A DNA stretch of 64,000 nucleotides, from the NCBI RefSeq assembly GCF_004214795.1, contig NZ_CP035928.1, forward strand, positions 1,116,001-1,180,000. Direction: 5' to 3'. Shown one piece after another: positions 43,806 to 55,141 of this stretch. The position numbers and the translations under genes are program-made. How positions within the stretch are numbered: the first letter of the stretch is position 1; each line of letters starts with the position of its first letter. Under the pieces are notes generated by a model. That model had not been told where the DNA came from, did not search any database, and saw nothing but the letters and a program-made list of their open reading frames with translations. This DNA is from Malaciobacter pacificus (GTDB lineage Bacteria; Campylobacterota; Campylobacteria; Campylobacterales; Arcobacteraceae).

Positions 43806-44441
43806 ATGGAAAAAACATTTATTGAGGCTATGGATTTTAGACATGCATGTAAGATTTTTGATGAGACTAAAAAAGTAAGTAATGAAGATATAAATTTTAT
43901 TTTAGATGTTGGTAGAAAATCACCTTCATCTTTTGGTATGGAGCCATGGAAGTTTTTAGTTATAACAAATGAAGAGTTAAAAGCAAAAATTAGACCATTT
44001 TGTTGGGATCAACCACAAATTACTACTTGTTCTCATTTGATTATAGTTCTTGCTGCAATTGAGGGTGTTAAACCAGAATCTGGAATTCCTATGAGAAAAT
44101 TTAGTAGAAGAGAAATGCCACAAGAGAAAAAAGATTTTTATATTAAACTTTATACTGACCATTTAACTGGAACTAAAACTTTATTAAATGATGAAAATGT
44201 TTATTACTGGACTTCAAAACAAACATATATTGCTTTAGGAAATATGATGACAGCAGCAGCTATTAGGGGAATTGATACTTGTCCTATTGAAGGATTTGAA
44301 AAAGAAAAAGTTGAAGAGGTTTTAGGTGTGGATACAAATAAATATCAACTATCTGTAGTATTACCTGTTGGTTATAGAATAAATCCACAATCAACACAAT
44401 TAAGAGAAAAGTTAGAAGACGTAGTTGAATATATAAAATAA
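43806..44441 (+). CDS. NAD(P)H nitroreductase (copy A)
   Basis: 211 residues of the FMN-dependent nitroreductase fold: DFRHACKIFDETKKVSNEDINFILDVGRKSPSSFGMEPWKFLVITN, then TYIALGNMMTAAAIRGIDTCPIEGFEKEKVEEVLGV and a conserved VVLPVGYR. Close in type to NfsB/NfnB. It is the first of two tandem paralogues, divergent from an HxlR regulator, a usual layout for redox or electrophile-responsive flavoenzymes. AAGGAA precedes the ATG. Confidence 0.92.
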   Translation: MEKTFIEAMDFRHACKIFDETKKVSNEDINFILDVGRKSPSSFGMEPWKFLVITNEELKAKIRPFCWDQPQITTCSHLIIVLAAIEGVKPESGIPMRKFSRREMPQEKKDFYIKLYTDHLTGTKTLLNDENVYYWTSKQTYIALGNMMTAAAIRGIDTCPIEGFEKEKVEEVLGVDTNKYQLSVVLPVGYRINPQSTQLREKLEDVVEYIK

Positions 44442-44521: not shown

Positions 44522-45151
44522 ATGGAAAAGAGTTTTATGGAAGCTATGGATTTTAGACATGCGTGTAAGATTTTTGATGAAACAAAAAAAGTTAGTGATG
44601 AAGATTTAGCATACATAATAGAAGCAGGTCGAAAATCTCCCTCATCATTTGGAATGGAACCATGGAAGTTTTTAGTTATTACAAATGAAGAGTTAAAAGC
44701 TAAAATTAGACCATATTGTTGGGACCAACCACAAATTACAACATGTTCACATTTGATTATTGTTCTTGCTGCTATTGAAGAAGTTAAAGTTGAATCTGGA
44801 CTTGTGAAAAAGAAACTTGGAAGAAAAGGTTTCCCTGAAGATAAACTAGAGTTCTATGTTGGTATTTATGGTTCTCATTTAAAAGATGTATTAAGTAGTG
44901 ATGATAATATTTACTCTTGGACAGCAAGACAAACATATATTGCTTTAGGAAATATGATGACTGGTGCTGCTGCTAGAGGAATTGATACTTGTCCAATTGA
45001 AGGATTTGAAAAAGAGAATGTTGAAAAAGTTTTAGAAATTGATACTACTAAATATCAAGTATCAGTTATTTTACCAATTGGATATAGAATTGAACCACAA
45101 TCTACTTTTGTAAGAGAACCAGTTGAGAATATAGTTGAATATATAAAATAA
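44522..45151 (+). CDS. NAD(P)H nitroreductase (copy B)
   Basis: 209 residues, a clear paralogue of the gene 80 bp upstream. The first 80 residues are nearly the same (DFRHACKIFDETKKVSDED, SPSSFGMEPWKFLVITNEELKAKIRPYCWDQPQITTCSHLIIVLAAIE). The middle part (residues 85-130) has diverged, which may change substrate range. It has its own promoter-like AAAATATAATC at about 44489 and AAAGGA before the ATG. Confidence 0.92.
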   Translation: MEKSFMEAMDFRHACKIFDETKKVSDEDLAYIIEAGRKSPSSFGMEPWKFLVITNEELKAKIRPYCWDQPQITTCSHLIIVLAAIEEVKVESGLVKKKLGRKGFPEDKLEFYVGIYGSHLKDVLSSDDNIYSWTARQTYIALGNMMTGAAARGIDTCPIEGFEKENVEKVLEIDTTKYQVSVILPIGYRIEPQSTFVREPVENIVEYIK

Positions 45152-45213: not shown

Positions 45214-45250
45214 AAAATGATACTTTTCTTATACTTTTTAATTATATAAT
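45214..45250 (+). promoter_or_regulatory. Regulated promoter module A (FIST operon)
   Basis: AAAATGATACTTTT, 3 bp, ATACTTT, 7 bp, TATAAT. The two ATACTTT boxes (45220 and 45231) are 11 bp apart, one helical turn, and the nearer begins 14 bp before the -10 (45245-45250). A further AAAATGATACTTTT lies at 45185-45198. Modules with identical spacing lie at 48958-48994 and, on the other strand, 55105-55141. The layout is that of an OmpR-family activator site overlapping the -35 region. Confidence 0.75.
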
Positions 45251-45280: not shown

Positions 45281-46348
45281 ATGAGAGAAGGTGTATACTA
45301 TCCTTGTTTTAAAGATTTTTTAAAAACTAATCAAGATAAAACAAACAAACAATTTGTACTTATAGCAGAATATAGTGATTTTAAAATGGAATATTTAGAT
45401 AACTATAAAGGCGATATTATGGGTGCTATTGTACCATTTATTGTTTATAATACTGAATATTACAATAAGGGTGTTATTGTATTTGAATTAGATGAAAATA
45501 GTGATTTTCTTTTTGTTGAAGATATGACTAATTTAAATCAAGAAAAAGTCGAATCCCTTGAAATTAGTTCTGCAATTGTTATTCTTGATGGTTTAAGTCC
45601 AAATATTACTATGTTTTTAGATGATTTATTTGAATTTCTTCCTGAAAATACTCAAATAGTGGGTGGAGGTGCTGGAAAAATGACTTTTGAACAAGATCCT
45701 GTGATTTTTTCAAAAGAGAATGGAATTCATAATAATGCTGCACTAATTGTAAAGCTTTCAAATAAAATAAATATTGGAATAGAAAATGGATGGCAATATT
45801 TAGAAGGTCCATTTATTACAACAAGTTCTGAAAAAAATGTATTAAAAACTTTAAATTTTAGAAATGCATTTGAAGTTTATAAAGAGATTGTTGAAAAAGA
45901 TAGTGGTATGGTTTTTAATGATAAAAATTTCTTTGATATTGCAAAATCATATCCTCTTGGTATTGTAAAATACGATAAAGAGATTATAGTTAGAGATCCA
46001 ATACTAGTTGATGAAAATAATAATTTAGTTTTAGTTGGTGATATTCCTCAGAACTCAACTATTCAAATATTAAAAGGTGAAGAAGATAAATTAATTGAGT
46101 CTTCAGCAAAAGCTGTAAATCATGCTATAAAAGATATAAACAGTAAAAGTAGCTTAATAGTTTTTGATTGTATATCAAGAAGTATATATTTAGGAGATAA
46201 ATTTGTTCAAGAGTTAGAAGGTATGAAAAATAACACTGTGTTCAATACTAAATTATGTGGGGCTTTAACTTTAGGAGAAATCGCAAATAATGGTGATGAA
46301 TATATAACATTTTATAATAAATCTTGTGTTGTTGGTGTTATATGTTAG
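45281..46348 (+). CDS. FIST-domain signal sensor protein
   Basis: 355 residues with FIST N and C regions: IVPFIVYNTEYYNKGVIVFELDENSD, LPENTQIVGGGAGKMTFEQDPVIFSKENG, GWQYLEGPFITTSSEKNVLKTLNFRNAFEVYKEIVE, and CGALTLGEIANNGDEYITFYNKSCVVGVIC at the end. FIST domains are thought to sense small ligands and usually sit upstream of kinases or cyclases. No membrane segment is seen. It overlaps the histidine kinase gene by 7 bp, so it is the likely input protein of that kinase. AAAGGA precedes the ATG. Confidence 0.9.
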   Translation: MREGVYYPCFKDFLKTNQDKTNKQFVLIAEYSDFKMEYLDNYKGDIMGAIVPFIVYNTEYYNKGVIVFELDENSDFLFVEDMTNLNQEKVESLEISSAIVILDGLSPNITMFLDDLFEFLPENTQIVGGGAGKMTFEQDPVIFSKENGIHNNAALIVKLSNKINIGIENGWQYLEGPFITTSSEKNVLKTLNFRNAFEVYKEIVEKDSGMVFNDKNFFDIAKSYPLGIVKYDKEIIVRDPILVDENNNLVLVGDIPQNSTIQILKGEEDKLIESSAKAVNHAIKDINSKSSLIVFDCISRSIYLGDKFVQELEGMKNNTVFNTKLCGALTLGEIANNGDEYITFYNKSCVVGVIC

Positions 46349-47841
46349 TAGAACAACTATCAACAGCATATAAGTGTCATAGCTCTATTGGAAATAGTAT
46401 AAATTTAAAAGAGATGATAACAGAGGTTATTAAAACATTTATATCTGAGTCTTATGCAATTTATGGGGAGTTCTATCAAAAAGAGGAAGAGTCTTTAAAA
46501 AAAATAGTTAGTTTTGGAAAACTATCTAATTTTGATATTAAAAATTATGATAGTTATACAAAACCAATGTCATTAATTACAGAAGAAAAAATTAATATAA
46601 TAAAGATGAATTTAGATCAAGGTATTATTTTCTTAGTTTCTAAAAACAAAAATGCAGACTGTTCATTTTTTTATTCTATGTTTGAAAGTTTAATTCCAAG
46701 ATTAAATTTAAGTATATCATCATGTATTAATTATGAAAAGTTGTTAGTATCATATGATTTAGTAAAAAAGCAAAAAATCGAACTTCAAAAAGCTAATAAA
46801 ACAAAAGATGAGTTTTTAGCTAACATGAGTCATGAATTAAAAACTCCTCTAAATTCAATTTTATTATTATCAACACTTATGTCTAAAAATAAAGATGATA
46901 AATATGATGAAAAGACATTGAAAAATATGGATATTATTAAAAAATGTTCATTAGAATTAATGGATTTAATTAATGATATTTTAGATATTTCACAATTAGA
47001 AGCAGGAAAGGTTTCTATTCATAATGAATCTATAGATTTAAAAGTCATTATAGAAGATATTTATGCTTCAATGAAAGAGATGACACTTAATAAAAATATA
47101 GATTTGATAATGGATTTTAAAGGTAATCATTTTACTATGATTTCTGATAAAAGAAGAATTAGACAGATTATTAAAAATTTAGTAAGTAATGCAATTAAGT
47201 TTACCTCTGAAGGATATGTTAAAATAACTTTAACAGAATTATTTGATAGATATCAAATCGATATTGAAGATACTGGTATTGGTTTAGATAATGATAAGTT
47301 AGAACAAATTTTTGACAGATTTAAACAAGCTGATGGCTCAACAACTAGAAAATATGGTGGAACAGGTCTTGGCTTGTCTATTTCAAAAGAGTTAGCGATA
47401 TTATTAAATGGTGATATTTTAGTAAAGAGTCAAAAGAATAAAGGTAGCATATTCACTTTTGAAATAACTAAACAAAAAGAAGATAACGTAATAAAATCTT
47501 TTATAAAAAATGATGATAAATTAAATGGTGAAAATAATAATATTAAAACAAATATTATTGTATATCTTAAAGATACAATTGAGCAATTTAAACTAACTAT
47601 TAAGTTGAAAAAGTGTGATTATCATACTTTTGCTGCTTTAAATGAAGAAAGCTTTATTACTTATTTAGAAAAATTAAAAGATGAAAAGGCAGTAATTTTA
47701 ATTGATGAAAGAGTTAAAGATTTTGAAAATATAATAAAATTAATAAATGATCTTAATTATAAAAAGATAATTACTGTTACTAATAATATTGAGCTAGATG
47801 AGAGTTTATTAAATAAAATTGAAAAATTGATAAAAGGTTAA
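46342..47841 (+). CDS. Histidine kinase with degenerate C-terminal receiver-like domain
   Basis: About 499 residues, cytoplasmic. After an N-terminal region of unclear fold (1-150, possibly GAF-like) comes HisKA FLANMSHELKTPLNSILLLSTLM (phospho-His in the H-box). The ATPase domain has NAIKFT, EDTGIGLDNDKLEQIFDRFKQADGSTTRKYGGTGLGLSISKELA. The last about 100 residues (NIIVYLKDTIEQFKLTIKLKKCDYHTFAALNEESFITYLEKL...AVILIDERVKDFENIIKLINDL) have receiver-like alternation but no acidic pocket. ATG 46342 overlaps the FIST stop; a longer start at 46324 lies inside the FIST gene. This kinase belongs to the hybrid-kinase sequence type, unlike the HQWKQPL kinases nearby. Confidence 0.88.
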   Translation: MLVEQLSTAYKCHSSIGNSINLKEMITEVIKTFISESYAIYGEFYQKEEESLKKIVSFGKLSNFDIKNYDSYTKPMSLITEEKINIIKMNLDQGIIFLVSKNKNADCSFFYSMFESLIPRLNLSISSCINYEKLLVSYDLVKKQKIELQKANKTKDEFLANMSHELKTPLNSILLLSTLMSKNKDDKYDEKTLKNMDIIKKCSLELMDLINDILDISQLEAGKVSIHNESIDLKVIIEDIYASMKEMTLNKNIDLIMDFKGNHFTMISDKRRIRQIIKNLVSNAIKFTSEGYVKITLTELFDRYQIDIEDTGIGLDNDKLEQIFDRFKQADGSTTRKYGGTGLGLSISKELAILLNGDILVKSQKNKGSIFTFEITKQKEDNVIKSFIKNDDKLNGENNNIKTNIIVYLKDTIEQFKLTIKLKKCDYHTFAALNEESFITYLEKLKDEKAVILIDERVKDFENIIKLINDLNYKKIITVTNNIELDESLLNKIEKLIKG

Positions 47842-47843
47842 TA

Positions 47844-48959
47844 ATGAATGATAAATTTAATATCTTAATTGTTGATGATATTCAAGAGAATATTTACACA
47901 TTGGAGTTGTTAATAAGTGATAATTTTGATGTTAATATTTATAGTGCTTTAAGTGCAAGTGATGCTATGAAAGTTTTACTTGAACATCCAATTGATTTAA
48001 TCCTAAGTGATGTTCAAATGCCAGATATAAATGGTTTTGAGTTTGCACAATATTTAAAAGATGTAGAGATTACGAAAAATATACCAATAATATTTATTAC
48101 AGGTATTTTTGATAAAGATGAATATAAAGCCAAGGGTTATGATGTGGGGGCAATAGAATATATTACTAAGCCAATTGACAATACATTACTGCTGTCTAAA
48201 TTAAAAATTTATATTGATGTTTATAATAGATTAAAGATAAAAAATTTGGAATTAAATAAATCTAATGCTTTGTTAATCCAAAGTAGTAAAATGGCTACTA
48301 TTGGGGAGATGTTAGGGGTTATATCTCATCAGTTAAAACAACCTTTGAATTTAATATCTTTGTATTGTGATGATATGCATTATTCTTATAAAACTGATGA
48401 TTTAAATGATGATTTTATGAATGACTTTAAAGTAAATACTAAAGAGCAAATAAATTATATGAATAAGACTATAAATGGCTTTTTAGAGTTTTTTAATCCC
48501 AATAAGAAAAAAGAAAAATTTAATATAAATAAAGCTGTTATAGAATCAACTGTACTATTAAAAGATAAGTTAAAAACTATTGGTACTCATTTAGAATATG
48601 ATATTGATGAATCTTTGAATTGTTATGGTGTAGAAATGGAAATTTCACAAGTTGTATTAAATATTATTAATAATGCACTAGATGTGTTTCAAGAAAAGAG
48701 TATTGAAAACTCATTAATAGAAATAAAAAGTTTTAAAAGTGGTGATAAAATAGTATTAACTATCGAAGATAATGCTGGTGGTGTGGAAAATAATCAAATT
48801 GAGAATCTATTTGATGCATATTACACTACAAAAGAAGAGGGCACTGGAATAGGCTTATATATGGCTAAATTAATTATTGAGAATAGTTTTAATGGGAAGA
48901 TTGAAGTTAAAAATAGTGACAAAGGTTTAAAATTTATAATTTTTTTAAATAGTTATTAA
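47844..48959 (+). CDS. Receiver-histidine kinase
   Basis: 371 residues. N-terminal receiver: FNILIVDDIQENIYTLELL, phospho-Asp in LILSDVQMPDINGFEF, Thr in IIFITGIFD, Lys in IEYITKPID. It is followed by a helix and a kinase core with H-box MATIGEMLGVISHQLKQPLNLISLYCDD, NIINNALDVF, EDNAGGVENNQIENLFDAYYTTKE and GTGIGLYMAKLII. It is probably the relay partner of the FIST/kinase pair: the receiver can take phosphate and its His can pass it on. It begins 2 bp after the kinase gene. Confidence 0.92.
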   Translation: MNDKFNILIVDDIQENIYTLELLISDNFDVNIYSALSASDAMKVLLEHPIDLILSDVQMPDINGFEFAQYLKDVEITKNIPIIFITGIFDKDEYKAKGYDVGAIEYITKPIDNTLLLSKLKIYIDVYNRLKIKNLELNKSNALLIQSSKMATIGEMLGVISHQLKQPLNLISLYCDDMHYSYKTDDLNDDFMNDFKVNTKEQINYMNKTINGFLEFFNPNKKKEKFNINKAVIESTVLLKDKLKTIGTHLEYDIDESLNCYGVEMEISQVVLNIINNALDVFQEKSIENSLIEIKSFKSGDKIVLTIEDNAGGVENNQIENLFDAYYTTKEEGTGIGLYMAKLIIENSFNGKIEVKNSDKGLKFIIFLNSY

Positions 48960-48994
48960 AATGATACTTTTTCAATACTTTATCTCTATATAAT
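48958..48994 (+). promoter_or_regulatory. Regulated promoter module B (regulator 49027)
   Basis: AAAATGATACTTTT, TCA, ATACTTT, ATCTCTA, TATAAT. The boxes at 48964 and 48975 are 11 bp apart and the nearer begins 14 bp before the -10 (48989-48994), as in modules A and C. The module begins inside the stop codon of the upstream kinase gene. Confidence 0.75.
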
Positions 48995-49026: not shown

Positions 49027-49719
49027 ATGAATAGTATTTTTATTGATATTAATAATTCTGTATCAACTAAATCAGTTTTAATTATTAGTCATGATGTAAA
49101 TTTTATTGAAAATATAAAAGAAAATAATGATACTAAACTTAATATTTCATACTATAGTGAAAATAAATATAAGTTAGTAAATAATGTTATTAATAGTTTT
49201 GATTTAATAGTGTTTGATAATGAAAATAATGATTTAGAATCTTTTGTAAATAGCTTTAAAGATAGTCATAATTATGAAATAAATATTCCTTTAATTATTT
49301 TAGAAAAAAATATTAGCAAAGAACAATCTTTGTACAAATATAGTAATGCTTTTTTAGTTTTACAAAAACCTGTTTCTTTAGATAGTTTAATTGTTAATAT
49401 CGATTTATCTTTAAATTTTTTAAGCATAAATAAGAAAAAACAGTTTGAGGATGGATTCTATTTTGATATTAATAGGGAATTGTTGTTTAAAGGAAAAGAA
49501 CTAATTAAATTAACTAAAACTGAAAGAAAACTTGTTAAACTTTTAGCTGAAAATGTTAATAACTTAGTTACATATGAAGATATTGCTCAAGAAGTTTGGA
49601 GAGGTAAGAATTTTTCTATATACTCTTTACGTAATGTTGTAAAGCATATTAGAGAAAAAACAAGCGATGCATTTTTAAAAAACTCATCAAATAGAGGTTA
49701 TGTAATTAATACAGTTTAA
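49027..49719 (+). CDS. OmpR-type regulator with altered receiver pocket
   Basis: 230 residues. The receiver-like half reads VLIISHDVNFIENI where active receivers have an acidic pair, keeps an Asp at the phosphorylation position (DLIVFDNENND), has Glu in place of the switch Thr (PLIILEKNIS) and keeps Lys-Pro (VLQKPVSLDS). The winged helix is intact: KLTKTERKLVKLLAENVNNLVTYEDIAQEVW, SIYSLRNVVKHIREK, NRGYVINTV. Such regulators often work without phosphorylation. A strong TAGGAGG precedes the ATG, and promoter module B lies upstream. Confidence 0.88.
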   Translation: MNSIFIDINNSVSTKSVLIISHDVNFIENIKENNDTKLNISYYSENKYKLVNNVINSFDLIVFDNENNDLESFVNSFKDSHNYEINIPLIILEKNISKEQSLYKYSNAFLVLQKPVSLDSLIVNIDLSLNFLSINKKKQFEDGFYFDINRELLFKGKELIKLTKTERKLVKLLAENVNNLVTYEDIAQEVWRGKNFSIYSLRNVVKHIREKTSDAFLKNSSNRGYVINTV

Positions 49720-49747: not shown

Positions 49748-50782
49748 TTATTTCTCTATTTCAATTTTTATTTCAGTATTATTTTTAAAACTACTAATAT
49801 AGATTTGTCCATTAAGTTTTTTTTCAATAATTGTTTTACAAATATATAAACCAAGTCCTGTACCATTTCTATCGTTTTTTGTTGAGAAATATGGATTAAA
49901 AACATGTTCAATTATATCTTTAGAAATACCACCTGCATTGTCCTTTAAAACTATAGTTTGAGACTTTTCATTTTCATCAATTATTATAGAGATATTTTTG
50001 TAAATGATGTTATTTTCTATAAATGCATCTTTTGAATTATTTAAAATATTTAAAATTACTTGAATTAAATCATTTTTATATAAAAAAATCTTTGATAAAT
50101 TATTTTTCTTTTCTAACTTAATTTTTATATCATTAGAGTCTAAATCTGAGTGTATCATTTTTATGACTAATTTAGTTATTTCATATAAATCTATATACTC
50201 TTTATTTTTCTCTTTTGAAAAAAAGTTTCTAAAATCATCAATTGTATTTGACATATATACTATTTGATTATTTATATCATTTAGACTATTTTCAATTGAT
50301 TCTTTATCTAATCTGTTTGTATGGTTCCTAAAATATATTTTTGAAACTATTGATGATAAAGTATTTAAAGGTTGTCTCCATTGATGTGCAATCATAGAGA
50401 TCATCTCACCCATTGCAGAGTGTTTAGATTTCGTAATTAGAAGTTTCTCTTTTTCTTTGAGCTCTGAAAGATTTAAAATATATGCTACTTTATTTCTTTT
50501 ATCTAAATCAATTATTTTAATTAAAACAGGAATTGTTTCTCCATTTTTTGTGATAATATTTAATTCTTGATATGTTTTAGATTCATATTTTATATATTTG
50601 GTATTAATATTAGGTATTAGTACTCCAGTTACTAAATTACCAATAAGTTCATTTTTACTTTCATATTTTAAAATCTCTACTAAGGATTGATTTATATCTG
50701 TTATAAAACCATCTTTTATAAGAATAATTCCTTCAATGGAATTATTTAAAATATTATTAAGAAGTTCTTTGTTACTTTTCAT
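49748..50782 (-). CDS. Soluble PAS histidine kinase
   Basis: 344 residues. One PAS domain (ILNNSIEGIILIKDGFITDINQSLVEILKYESKNELIGNLVTGVLIP...ETIPVLIKIIDLDKRNKVAYILNLSELKEKE) is followed by the H-box MGEMISMIAHQWRQPLNTLSSIVSKIYF and an ATPase domain (NILNNSKDAF, KDNAGGISKDIIEHVFNPYFSTKN, NGTGLGLYICKTIIE). No membrane helix. It is divergent from the regulator at 50864, whose start is 81 bp away; the two are probably cognate. Confidence 0.92.
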   Translation of the reverse strand: MKSNKELLNNILNNSIEGIILIKDGFITDINQSLVEILKYESKNELIGNLVTGVLIPNINTKYIKYESKTYQELNIITKNGETIPVLIKIIDLDKRNKVAYILNLSELKEKEKLLITKSKHSAMGEMISMIAHQWRQPLNTLSSIVSKIYFRNHTNRLDKESIENSLNDINNQIVYMSNTIDDFRNFFSKEKNKEYIDLYEITKLVIKMIHSDLDSNDIKIKLEKKNNLSKIFLYKNDLIQVILNILNNSKDAFIENNIIYKNISIIIDENEKSQTIVLKDNAGGISKDIIEHVFNPYFSTKNDRNGTGLGLYICKTIIEKKLNGQIYISSFKNNTEIKIEIEK

Positions 50783-50863: not shown

Positions 50864-51604
50864 ATGATTGATTATATATATTTAGAGAAATATTGTAAAA
50901 ACCTTAAAGTTTTATATGTAGAAGATGATAAATATAGTGCAAAAAAAGTAAAAGAACTACTTGATGAAATTTTTCCTAATGTAGTTTTAGCAAAAAATGG
51001 GGACGAAGCATTAAAATTATTTTTAGATTATAAAAGAGATACAGACTGTTTTTATGATTTAGTAATTACAGATATAAAAATGCCAAAACTAGATGGTATT
51101 TCTTTAAGTAAAAAAATATTAGAACAAAATAAAAAACAAGAAATTATTATTATTTCAGCTCACAGTGAAACAAATTATTTTTTAGAATTAATAAATTTAG
51201 GAATAAGTAATTTTATTTTGAAGCCTATAGATTACAATGATTTTATAAATATGGTTTATAAAATTACTAAATCTATTTATGAATCAAAAAATATAAATTC
51301 TACTAAGCCAACTTCTATCAAACTTGGTGAAGATTTATATTGGGATTTACAATTTAAAGTTTTAGTAAATAATCATAAAGAGGTGAAATTAACTAAAAAA
51401 GAGTTTCTTTTAATCAATCTACTTCTTAGTGTCAAAAATAAAACTTTTTCTAATGAAGAAATATTAAATAAAATTTGGTTAGATAATGAAACTACATCCA
51501 ATGTTACAAATTTAAAAAATACTATATCTCGATTAAGAAAAAAAGTTATTAGCTTAAATATTGAAAATATTTATGGATTTGGGTATAAGATAACCCAAGA
51601 TTAG
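50864..51604 (+). CDS. OmpR-type response regulator
   Basis: 246 residues. Receiver: LKVLYVEDDKYSAKKVKELL, phospho-Asp in LVITDIKMPKLDGISL, Ser in IIIISAHSE, Lys in NFILKPIDYND. Winged helix: KLTKKEFLLINLLLSVKNKTFSNEEILNKIW, TNLKNTISRLRKK, NIYGFGYKITQD. It is a close paralogue of the IS-split regulator (55098-52879), with the same C-terminal pattern. It is divergent from the PAS kinase and overlaps the REC-PAS gene by 4 bp tail to tail. Confidence 0.93.
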   Translation: MIDYIYLEKYCKNLKVLYVEDDKYSAKKVKELLDEIFPNVVLAKNGDEALKLFLDYKRDTDCFYDLVITDIKMPKLDGISLSKKILEQNKKQEIIIISAHSETNYFLELINLGISNFILKPIDYNDFINMVYKITKSIYESKNINSTKPTSIKLGEDLYWDLQFKVLVNNHKEVKLTKKEFLLINLLLSVKNKTFSNEEILNKIWLDNETTSNVTNLKNTISRLRKKVISLNIENIYGFGYKITQD

Positions 51605-52866
51605 CTAAAAAAACTCTTTTTATTACTTGAGCCTAATTTACTCTCTAAATCATTAATTACATCTTCAAGATTAGTTATTTTCTCATTTAATCTTAATTCA
51701 TTATTTTTATAAATATCTATTGTATTTTTATTATGCTCTAATGTTTCATTACAAAGTTCAATTTTTTCAAATAATTCATTTTTCTCATGTTTGAGATGCT
51801 TAATTAATTTTAATAAGTTTTCAATTTCCTCATTTTTTTGTTTAATTAAATTTAGTCTTCCAGACTGATTATTTAATTGACTCTTTTCATATGATTCTAA
51901 TTGATTTAATAATGCTTTTTTATTATTTTCTAATTCTTCAATTCTTAAGTTTAATGTAGAAATATATTTTTTAAGCTCAACTATTTCTTCATGACTTTTT
52001 TTATTATCTTCTGATATTGAATAAGCTTTTTTCTTAAATTGAACTATATTTTGAATAATTTTCTTATTTAACTCTTTTTTCTCTTTCTCTTCATCTGTTA
52101 CTTGATATCTAATTGCTAAGTACTCTAAGACATCTTTATTATTTAAATCATATATTGGCATATAAATAGTTTTAAGATAAATCAAATCATTGTTTTTATC
52201 AATAGATTTTAAGGTACCTTCCCAAATTTTTCCTTCTTTAAACTTTTCTTTGATATCATCGATAATCTCTGCTGAAACAGAAGAATCAATAATTGTAGTA
52301 AAATCTTTATCAATATATTCATCAGAAGATTTTCCTAACAAATCACAAAAATTATCATTTATATAGGTTATTTTATTTAATTTATTGATTTTTGTAATAT
52401 AAGTAATTTGTTCTATGGTTTTTAAATATACTTCTAGCTCTGATTGTTTTTGCATCAAAGAAGATTTTAAATATATTTTTTCACATGTTTTATATACTAC
52501 TTTTGTCATTGTTTCCATATCTAAAGGTTTAATTAAATAATTAACTACACCTAGTTCTATAGATTTTAATAAAACGTTAGATTCATTTCTAGCTGTAATA
52601 AATATAACTGGAATTTCAGTATCAACTTCTCTGATTTTCTCAAGCATATCTATACCATCCATTTTGGGCATATTTATATCACTAATGATTAAATCATAAT
52701 TGTTTTTATTGCTTTGAAATGCTAAAAAACCTTCTAGCCCATTTTCAAAGGAATCGACATTTTTAAAAATTCTTTTAAATATTTTTTGAGAAATTTCTCT
52801 TGCTTGTAGTTCATCTTCAACATACAATATATTTAAGCTTTTTACAAATTCTTTTAGTTTTTCCAT
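51601..52866 (-). CDS. Receiver-PAS-coiled-coil signalling protein
   Basis: 421 residues. The N-terminal receiver has all key residues (LNILYVEDELQAREISQKIF, LIISDINMPKMDGIDMLEKI, PVIFITARNESN, VNYLIKPLDMETM). A PAS domain follows (ITKINKLNKITYINDNFCDLLGKSSDEYIDKDF, YLKTIYMPIYDLNNKDVLEYLAIRYQVTDEE, about residues 150-270), and the last 150 residues are a long coiled coil. There is no kinase, cyclase or DNA-binding output, so it may act as a scaffold or adaptor. It lies 12 bp after the split regulator on the same strand and its expression may suffer from the ISb insertion. Confidence 0.9.
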   Translation of the reverse strand: MEKLKEFVKSLNILYVEDELQAREISQKIFKRIFKNVDSFENGLEGFLAFQSNKNNYDLIISDINMPKMDGIDMLEKIREVDTEIPVIFITARNESNVLLKSIELGVVNYLIKPLDMETMTKVVYKTCEKIYLKSSLMQKQSELEVYLKTIEQITYITKINKLNKITYINDNFCDLLGKSSDEYIDKDFTTIIDSSVSAEIIDDIKEKFKEGKIWEGTLKSIDKNNDLIYLKTIYMPIYDLNNKDVLEYLAIRYQVTDEEKEKKELNKKIIQNIVQFKKKAYSISEDNKKSHEEIVELKKYISTLNLRIEELENNKKALLNQLESYEKSQLNNQSGRLNLIKQKNEEIENLLKLIKHLKHEKNELFEKIELCNETLEHNKNTIDIYKNNELRLNEKITNLEDVINDLESKLGSSNKKSFFS

Positions 52867-52878
52867 ATTAGATTCTCA

Positions 52879-53080
52879 CTATTTATTTATACTTATTTTA
52901 TAACCAAGTCCATATATATTGTTTATATTTAAGTTGATATATTTCTTTTTTAATCGAGAGATAAGATTTTTTAAATTAGCTATATAATCTCTATCATCAT
53001 AAGTTTCTTGCCAAATTTCATTTATTATTTCATCAATAGTAAAAATTTTACTAGGATCTTTTATTAAAAGATTTATTAAT
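52879..53080 (-). pseudogene. 3' piece of a response regulator split by ISb
   Basis: The minus strand reads LINLLIKDPSKIFTIDEIINEIWQETYDDRDYIANLKNLISRLKKKYINLNINNIYGLGYKISINK then stop: the winged helix of an OmpR-type regulator. Joining 55098-54578 to 53080-52879 (one copy of the 4-bp target duplication kept) gives 723 bp, 240 codons plus stop. The junction KKELLLINLLIKD matches KKEFLLINLLLSV of the paralogue at 50864. Confidence 0.9.
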
Positions 53081-54573
53081 GAGCCACTTGCAGATTATAA
53101 AAAACAACCCGTAATTTAAGCTGATTTAAATTTTAAAAAGTTGAATCAAACTTCAGATAAGTTATAATTTTTTACTACAAAAATTTAACAGAAGAGCGAT
53201 TCAACTTATGGAAATTATTCTACCAAAAATATCTTCAAGTCTATCTAAAATGTGGACTAAGGTTTTAAATCTTGAAAATTCACTTTTTCCTTCTTTGAAA
53301 AGAGAGCTTCAATTAGAAGAGTTGTCAAATAAAGAGCAAAAGCTTATTAAGATATTAGACTTTGCTGCGATTGAAAAAAATATCACTGTCGTATCTATTA
53401 CAAACACTCCAAAGCATAGAGAAGAGATTGCACGAGCATTTATTGCAAAGAGTGTTTACAATATCCAAACAACCAGAGACCTTATCGATAGACTTCATAG
53501 TGATAGAACGCTGAGGATCTTGTGTGGGTGGAGATATAAAAACGATATTCCAAGTGAGTCTAAATTTAGTAGAGTCTTTAAGGAGCTCAGTGAGCTTAAA
53601 ATTGCACAAAAGACGCATGAGCAGTTTGTGAAGGAGTATCTAAGGGATACACTCTTTTTTTATAATGCAAGTGATGCAACAAAAATACCACTGAGAGAAA
53701 AACCTGTAAAAGTAGAAAAAGAAAAGTTTAAACCAAAAAGAAGAGGACGACCTAAAAAAGGTGAAACAAGAGAGCCTAAAACACCCAGTATCTTGCAGCA
53801 ACAAGAAGATATGAAAACCACAAAGCAGATGCTATCTTTGGTATCAACGCAGTGTGGAGTTGGAAGAAAACAGAATTCCAAAGGCAACTTTGAAACATGG
53901 ATAGGAGGGAAACTCCATATCAGTGTAGTAGATGGAGATATCCCTATTACTGCTATTTATTCAGGGGCAAATGTTCATGATAGCTCAGTAGCACTTCCTC
54001 TTATAAACGAGACAAGCAAAAAAGTATCATATCTTTATGACTTACAAGATGCAGGATACGACAGCAATATTATCAGAGATTTTTCCAAAAAACTAAATCA
54101 TAGACCGCTTATTGATATCAATCCGAAGAACTCCAAAGAGTTAAAAGGAAAAATTCAACTTATAAAAGATGAAAAAAAGAAATTTAAAATTCTAAACCTT
54201 ACTCAAAGTTTAGATACCCATCACTATAACCAAAGAAGTATGGTTGAGAGAGTCAATAAATACCTCAAAGAAGACTTTGGATGCAGTAATATTTATTATA
54301 AAGGAGCTACAAAAGTAGCTTCTGTTTTAGCATTTGGTATTTTATCAGTTTGTATTCATCAGAGTTTGAAACTGGTAACATAACTTTTAGCTAAAAACAC
54401 TAAAAATTAGCCATTTTTAAAACTCAACCATCAAGCACGCACCCAATAATAGTTTTTTATCTAAAATTGACCCATAAAGCGGTAAAATGATTAAAAGTTT
54501 AAAAGATCTGCTTGATAAGCTTAGTAGGTTTACAAATTCACTAGTTTATGATGGTGGAATTTGCAAGCGGCTC
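53081..54573 (+). mobile_element. Insertion sequence ISb (IS5/IS1182-like, 1493 bp), TSD TAAT
   Basis: The ends GAGCCACTTGCAGAT (53081-53095) and the complement of GAGCCGCTTGCAAAT (54559-54573) are 15-bp inverted repeats with two mismatches. TAAT flanks both sides (53077-53080 and 54574-54577). One transposase gene is present. Its GC content is visibly higher than the surroundings. 54384-54558 is non-coding. Confidence 0.9.
53208..54383 (+). CDS. IS5/IS1182-like transposase (ISb)
   Basis: 391 residues. An N-terminal helical DUF772-like domain (NIQTTRDLIDRLHSDRTLRILCGWRYKNDIPSESKFSRVFKELSE) is followed by a basic linker (KPKRRGRPKKGETREPK) and a DDE core: FYNASDATKIP, YLYDLQDAGYDSNIIRDF (Asp) and YNQRSMVERVNKYLKEDFG (Glu). 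Full length with no stop, so possibly active. It runs opposite to the interrupted regulator gene. The codon and base usage differs from neighbours, fitting recent arrival. Confidence 0.9.
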   Translation: MEIILPKISSSLSKMWTKVLNLENSLFPSLKRELQLEELSNKEQKLIKILDFAAIEKNITVVSITNTPKHREEIARAFIAKSVYNIQTTRDLIDRLHSDRTLRILCGWRYKNDIPSESKFSRVFKELSELKIAQKTHEQFVKEYLRDTLFFYNASDATKIPLREKPVKVEKEKFKPKRRGRPKKGETREPKTPSILQQQEDMKTTKQMLSLVSTQCGVGRKQNSKGNFETWIGGKLHISVVDGDIPITAIYSGANVHDSSVALPLINETSKKVSYLYDLQDAGYDSNIIRDFSKKLNHRPLIDINPKNSKELKGKIQLIKDEKKKFKILNLTQSLDTHHYNQRSMVERVNKYLKEDFGCSNIYYKGATKVASVLAFGILSVCIHQSLKLVT

Positions 54574-54577
54574 TAAT

Positions 54578-55098
54578 AATAACTCTTTTTTTGTAAGTTT
54601 TAACTCTTTTTCATTTTCTAGTAAAGTTTTTTTATTTACATCCCAATATAAATTATTACCTAAATTTATAATATTGTGTTCTTTTACTTTTAAATAGTAG
54701 TTAAACTCTTTTTTTAAAACATTATCTATAACTTCTAATAAGTTATCTAAATCAATAGGTTTTAATATATAATTATCAATATCTAATTGTATTGCTTTTA
54801 GCATCTTATCAGGTTCACTTCGAGCTGTTACAAAGATAAATGGAATCGTATTGTTTTCACTTCTAATTCTCTCTAAAAACTCTATACCATCCATTTTAGG
54901 CATATTAATATCACTAATAATTAAACTAATTTTATCATGTATTGTATTCATTATTTCACATGCTTCTGTACCATTAGAAGCAGTGTATATCTTGTTAAAA
55001 AACTTACTTAATATTGACTGAAGTTTTTTTGAAGTTGATTGATCATCTTCTATATAAAGTATGTTTACATTTTTTTTATATTCATTTAAATTTTTCAT
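54578..55098 (-). pseudogene. 5' piece of a response regulator split by ISb (receiver intact)
   Basis: The receiver is complete: VNILYIEDDQSTSKKLQSIL, phospho-Asp in LIISDINMPKMDGIEFL, Thr in PFIFVTARSEPD, Lys in NYILKPIDLDN. The frame reads on to KLTKKELLL and then into ISb, adding about 10 foreign residues (EPLANSTIIN) and a stop at 54541. A 185-residue receiver-only protein could still be made and could act as a phosphate sink. Promoter module C lies immediately upstream; its TATAAT ends 6 bases before the ATG. Confidence 0.9.
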
Positions 55099-55104
55099 GT
55101 CTTT

Positions 55105-55141
55105 ATTATATTATTAAAAAGTATCATAAAAGTATCATTTT
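55105..55141 (-). promoter_or_regulatory. Regulated promoter module C (split regulator)
   Basis: On the minus strand: AAAATGATACTTTT, ATG, ATACTTT, TTAATAA, TATAAT. The boxes are 11 bp apart and the nearer begins 14 bp before the -10, the same geometry as modules A and B. TATAAT ends at 55105 and the ATG is at 55098, leaving 6 bases, so the transcript may be leaderless. Confidence 0.75.

Follow-up and report, generated by a model that had tools for sequence, protein, structure and literature searches.

A stand-alone FIST protein paired with a histidine kinase, and an adjoining receiver-kinase, in Malaciobacter pacificus

Introduction

Pairs made of a FIST protein and a histidine kinase are already known in kind. 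In NosP/NosK, a pair that works with heme and NO, the FIST protein NosP sets the state of the kinase NosK (PMC12570481), and in VpsV/VpsS the FIST gene lies upstream of the gene for a cytoplasmic kinase (PMC4398556). FIST proteins are usually taken as NO or heme sensors after the example of NosP. A further precedent for the locus described here comes from pseudo-receivers, which are recognizable receiver domains missing at least one of the five active-site residues; in ShkA and CikA they inhibit HisKA (PMC12632262). No published pairing of FIST with Arcobacter kinases was found in the literature searched.

Here, we analyze a signaling locus in a 64,000-nt stretch of the Malaciobacter pacificus genome (the window; all coordinates below are positions within it). 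The genome around the window is a single contig of 2.66 Mb, and its relatives are Arcobacteraceae.

Results

Three overlapping or abutting genes encode a FIST protein and two kinases

The segment 45281-48959 contains three genes, all on the plus strand, that overlap or abut. The first (45281..46348) encodes a stand-alone FIST protein of 355 aa, which we propose to be an auxiliary cytoplasmic sensor. Membership of the family was judged by PF08495/PF10442, and both Pfam cut-offs were exceeded, with 55.6 bits for FIST N (cut-off, 23.2) and 85 bits for FIST_C (cut-off, 28.5). The only strong PDB fold matches of its AlphaFold2 model (pLDDT, 95.9) were to the FIST domain of human FBXO22 (8ua3 and others); phmmer and profile sequence searches against the PDB found no relative. 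The second gene (46342..47841) encodes HK1, a histidine kinase of 499 aa with His164 (HisKA, 60.7 bits; HATPase_c, 101 bits). The ATG at 46342, sharing bases with the FIST stop codon (ATGTTAG), is its likely start, and a TTG at 46324 was disfavored. The third gene, RHK2 (47844..48959), starts 2 nt past the HK1 stop and encodes a receiver (77 bits) fused to a second kinase (HATPase, 63.7 bits; HisKA, 24.7 bits, which is under the cut-off). All five receiver active-site residues of RHK2 (D11, D12, D56, T86, and K109) are present, as is His162, and they are conserved in 16 homologs. The gene calls, the Pfam domains, the ATGTTAG overlap, and the 2-nt gap bear out the first-pass annotation, which had described a FIST gene, a kinase gene, and a receiver-kinase gene in close succession, the last with a complete receiver ahead of its kinase.

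Upstream of FIST lie two tandemly duplicated nitroreductase genes (43806-44441 and 44522-45151). A nitroreductase homolog remains beside RHK2 in genomes without FIST-HK1.

FIST and HK1 form a recurrent pair

The family survey covered 104 genomes and 34 stand-alone FIST genes of the window's clade. A partner-domain kinase adjoined FIST in 34 of the 34 cases, an adjacency far above chance, and in 33 of them it did so within 60 nt; in the remaining pair (G001) the two genes are parted by two others resembling an IS21-type insertion. Pairing of this kind extends beyond the family. Among 80 loci from at least 15 phyla, haloarchaea included, a same-strand gene was found no more than 100 nt downstream of 70 of 74 FIST genes (median gap, -1), and 66 of the 77 proteins encoded downstream of FIST carried the partner domain. 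FIST and HK1 are also missing together from the syntenic locus in three genomes (G004, G024, and G026), in which RHK2 and the homolog of the 49027 gene stay. The sequence comparisons thus argue for FIST-HK1 as a real pair with a strong link. The idea that FIST feeds HK1 gains from the universal adjacency and the common partner domain, but the statement that separate FIST input proteins so paired are uncommon does not agree with pairs in at least 15 phyla.

Two variations on this layout were seen. On a Salinirubellus plasmid (L074 5917-9782), a haloarchaeal FIST gene overlaps a PAS kinase gene in a glycosyltransferase region. In some Campylobacterota (L144, L147, L148, and L150), FIST genes are duplicated in tandem, and the second FIST occupies the place directly downstream.

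A partner domain at the N terminus of HK1

The HK1 segment ahead of the kinase core (46342..46815) is a domain of ∼150 to 170 residues with the consensus LYEIxxSIGxSLxLxxML...LRKLNCxxG...LPxFGxLxL...KLAxA. It had no Pfam match, and no GAF match was obtained at an E value of ≤10 for HK1 or nine relatives. Its AlphaFold2 model (pLDDT, 93.7) resembles GAF (TM of 0.57 to 4g3v), and the domain is predicted to be GAF-like in fold. An HMM built from 52 non-Campylobacterota FIST-neighbor proteins matched HK1 at an E value of 1.3e-7 and recovered all FIST-adjacent kinases of the clade among all open reading frames (ORFs) of 40 loci, the first other protein appearing at an E value of 0.01. In the reciprocal test, 39 of 58 targets were found, and the hits among 417 other ORFs numbered 2, of which one was a missed overlapping partner. 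FIST probably acts through this domain, because in the family it is carried on two kinase cores that are unrelated to each other (SHELKTPL and AHQWRQPL) and elsewhere it is also found on GGDEF, EAL, HD, and SpoIIE outputs.

Some partner-domain kinases stand alone. Twenty-four of the 58 in the family have no nearby FIST, 15 of them in genomes without such a FIST, and therefore the domain can work without FIST; these 24 orphan kinases rule out a domain exclusive to FIST neighbors. A good example is an HK1-RHK2 paralogue pair in the same genome (L224 3383-6125; C1 about 932517-935259), which has the same partner domain and no FIST. A FIST lost or decayed upstream of orphan HK1 paralogues was considered and rejected, as the gap carries no FIST signal; in the paralogue of the same genome it contains a cluster of four tRNA genes.

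The window FIST lies far from NosP

We considered whether the window FIST is a NosP-type protein, with heme as its cofactor, NO as its signal, and HK1 as its target. The locus has a nosRPK-like layout, with a single-domain FIST beside a soluble kinase whose N terminus is unrecognized (PMC12570481), and FIST weakly matches the NosP profile. However, several features speak against this reading. First, on the NCBIfam model NF041558, which together with plasmid or family NosP-like proteins represented NosP in the comparison, the window FIST scored 27.1 bits against an equivalog cut-off of 450 bits. Second, the FIST tree, in which the NosP-like rows are distant NosP relatives only (three scored proteins and L078, 71 to 100 bits), parts the window clade from these proteins at 100/100. 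Third, the 11 members of the window's clade share no conserved histidine, and the near-invariant family histidine (76/78), that of the HGW motif, is Asn in the window FIST. Finally, no c-di-GMP output (GGDEF, EAL, or HD-GYP) was found among the ten neighbor genes scanned. The HGW histidine is near-invariant across phyla and has been lost in the window's clade and in some others of the family. Cys297 is invariant in the window's clade and almost invariant among the clade's relatives. Given the histidine pattern, a His-ligated heme in the window FIST is unlikely. NO or heme as its ligand appears doubtful, because the score is far below the NosP cut-off and the clade has no conserved histidine, and we regard a NosP-type function as improbable.

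The same genome encodes two further FIST proteins in long frames of 659 and 634 aa (L001 and L002; C1 at about 384 kb and 105 kb, respectively). A piece of the second scored 114 bits on the NosP model.

The HK1 tail and the separable receiver-kinase

NCBIfam hybrid-kinase models align along HK1 to residue ∼475, which takes them into its C-terminal, pseudo-receiver-like tail (47545..47838). The tail had no Pfam receiver match, and its alignment to the receiver profile (hhalign E value of 0.004; probability, 8%) gives weak support for receiver ancestry. In all 17 homologs the beta-1 acid pair is absent and the beta-3 Asp (D455 in HK1) is present, which agrees with the earlier description of a receiver-like domain without an acidic pocket. 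HK1 therefore does not have the receiver with DD, D, T, and K by which a hybrid histidine kinase is recognized. By analogy with ShkA and CikA, it is plausible that the tail restrains or gates its own kinase.

RHK2 homologs were found in 46 of the 104 family genomes, several of them without FIST. At most RHK2 loci examined, an HK1-type kinase lies next door with varied sensor ends, and HK1-type kinases with other N termini stand beside RHK2 at six loci (L221, L226, L227, L229, L230, and L234). Where the partner of FIST is of the HK1 type (type A), RHK2 lies close downstream of HK1, the exception being G006, which has FIST-HK1 without RHK2; type-B FIST-kinase loci are also without RHK2. In G004, G024, and G026, the order is nitroreductase, RHK2, and 49027 homolog, with no FIST or HK1. 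Because FIST-HK1 occurs without RHK2 and RHK2 occurs without FIST, the operon is assembled from two modules, with RHK2 as a separable add-on. A single conserved three-gene relay, as the first-pass annotation had it, is not supported, since the modules are found apart. That annotation had also named conserved separation of the genes in relatives as a mark against its proposal; such separation exists to some extent for RHK2, whereas FIST-HK1 shows none of it.

How the two kinases might work together can be read in several ways. FIST-HK1 and RHK2 may be separate systems that share an operon, with HK1 signaling elsewhere, for example, to the products of 50864 or 51601. FIST and a kinase do stand alone in type-B loci, and RHK2 is found without FIST or HK1, but kinases with the HK1 core neighbor RHK2 in most loci whatever their sensor ends, and RHK2 follows HK1 closely in the type-A loci other than G006; we consider this reading unlikely, and the neighborhood supports the earlier suggestion that the first kinase works with the receiver-kinase. 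Also of low probability is a linear phosphorelay from the HK1 His to the RHK2 Asp, from there to the RHK2 His, and then to an OmpR receiver, which would use the intact receiver and H-box of RHK2 and would suit an HK1 without an intact receiver of its own, but which is opposed by the absence of Hpt domains from the ten genes searched with Pfam, by the ATPase domain of RHK2, with which phosphate from the Asp is unneeded, and by RHK2 at loci without an adjacent HK1 (L220, L222, and L232). The Asp-to-His transfer inside RHK2 that had been proposed is unsupported, and direct gating of the RHK2 kinase by its receiver is simpler.

A putative tandem operator and the neighboring regulators

The pattern WTGATACTWTTNTAATACTWTT, with TATAAT at a fixed distance, occurs at three places: before the FIST operon, before the 49027 gene, and before the gene that starts at 55098. 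The first copy of this putative tandem, 11-bp-spaced operator, ATGATACTTTTCTTATACTTTT, is at 45217..45238 on the plus strand (TATAAT at 45245-45250), the second is at 48961..48982 on the plus strand (TATAAT at 48989-48994), and the third is at 55117..55138 on the minus strand. An OmpR-family regulator would be expected to bind an 11-bp-spaced direct repeat that replaces the -35 box. With up to 3 mismatches allowed, 11 of the 16 type-A FIST genes had the operator upstream compared to 0 of 17 type-B genes, and in 18 genomes the pattern gave 97 matches compared to 42 for the reversed control, both counts being based on a consensus drawn partly from the tested sites. At four more type-A loci, FIST shares an operon with a receiver-PAS gene that comes first, and in three of the four (L118, L132, and the G068 site) the box is ahead of that gene. 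Among 29 ORFs inspected downstream of operator matches, 11 had receivers and 6 were FIST operons. The operator and its TATAAT, at constant spacing, are also seen upstream of many Arcobacteraceae signaling genes (L110-L139), possibly a signaling-gene regulon.

Several further signaling genes lie in the neighborhood. The 49027 gene (49027..49719, plus strand) encodes an OmpR-like regulator with a degenerate receiver and no Pfam receiver match; its homolog adjoins RHK2 also in relatives without FIST. It is followed by a syntenic PAS histidine kinase gene (49748..50782, minus strand) and by the gene for an intact OmpR-family response regulator with D70 and K120 (50864..51604, plus strand), a candidate output. 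A gene for a receiver-PAS-coiled-coil protein, recurrent beside RHK2, lies at 51601..52866 on the minus strand. Just before it, an insertion sequence has split another OmpR regulator: the N-terminal receiver part (54541..55098, minus strand) is parted from the C-terminal DNA-binding remnant (52882..53094, minus strand) by a DDE transposase gene (53208..54383, plus strand; Pfam DDE_Tnp_1/DUF772). The output of this regulator has therefore likely been lost in the window strain, which leaves 50864 and the atypical 49027. Of the receivers named earlier as possible outputs, 50864 is an intact OmpR candidate and 49027 is degenerate, and the OmpR regulator beside 51601, which had not been listed, is the broken one.

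Discussion

The reading that we favor, at somewhat better than even probability, runs from FIST on the GAF-like domain of HK1 through HK1, the RHK2 receiver, and the RHK2 kinase to an OmpR regulator, with an autoregulatory loop through the operator. The separate cytoplasmic FIST would dock on HK1 at its N-terminal domain and might, like NosP with NosK, set the balance of HK1's kinase and phosphatase activities. The degenerate tail would be unusable for phosphotransfer and more likely gates the kinase. HK1 would then phosphorylate the intact receiver of RHK2, which would in turn switch RHK2's own kinase, and this kinase would phosphorylate an OmpR-type regulator of the neighborhood. Binding of such a regulator to the tandem operator copies that precede the FIST operon and 49027 would close the loop. 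Of this scheme, the sequences themselves show the order of the genes, their domains and active-site residues, the conserved partner domain, and the shared operator, whereas docking, the direction of transfer, the identity of the binding regulator, and a ligand other than heme/NO are inferred.

The most important part of the outcome is wider than the initial proposal: a sensor and kinase that pair up across many phyla, through a partner domain that Pfam does not contain. The relay is less certain. We give even chances to a more general view, in which an ancient bacterial and haloarchaeal two-gene module combines a non-NosP FIST, probably with a non-heme ligand, and a GAF-like domain dedicated to reading it out, which can be attached to kinases, cyclases, or phosphatases. 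The window clade, which is separate from NosP, has a wide distribution and is linked to a single partner domain. It offers a defined protein pair for finding the ligand and the interface, and the partner domain predicts FIST partners from sequence alone across at least 15 phyla.

Compared to described systems, the locus shows both likenesses and differences. Among solved structures, the predicted fold is seen only in the FIST domain of human FBXO22, which is an F-box substrate adaptor and not a kinase sensor. The VpsV/VpsS pair of Vibrio cholerae also has its FIST gene upstream of that of a cytoplasmic kinase; VpsS feeds a quorum-sensing phosphorelay, whereas the window has receiver-kinase and OmpR-type genes downstream. 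NosP/NosK(NahK) is similar in that a stand-alone FIST gene lies beside the gene for a soluble histidine kinase without a recognized N-terminal domain. There, FIST controls the kinase in trans; the window pair has the adjacency, and control is what we propose. Unlike NosP, the window FIST is far below the NosP cut-off and has no conserved histidine, no partner domain was found in L068-L070, the NosP-like kinases that were compared, and its neighbors are OmpR-type whereas those of NosP are often c-di-GMP genes. Finally, HK1 resembles the ShkA and CikA hybrid kinases in joining a HisKA kinase to what may be a nonfunctional receiver that could restrain it. It differs from them in lacking another, intact receiver on its own chain, a role that RHK2 may fill.
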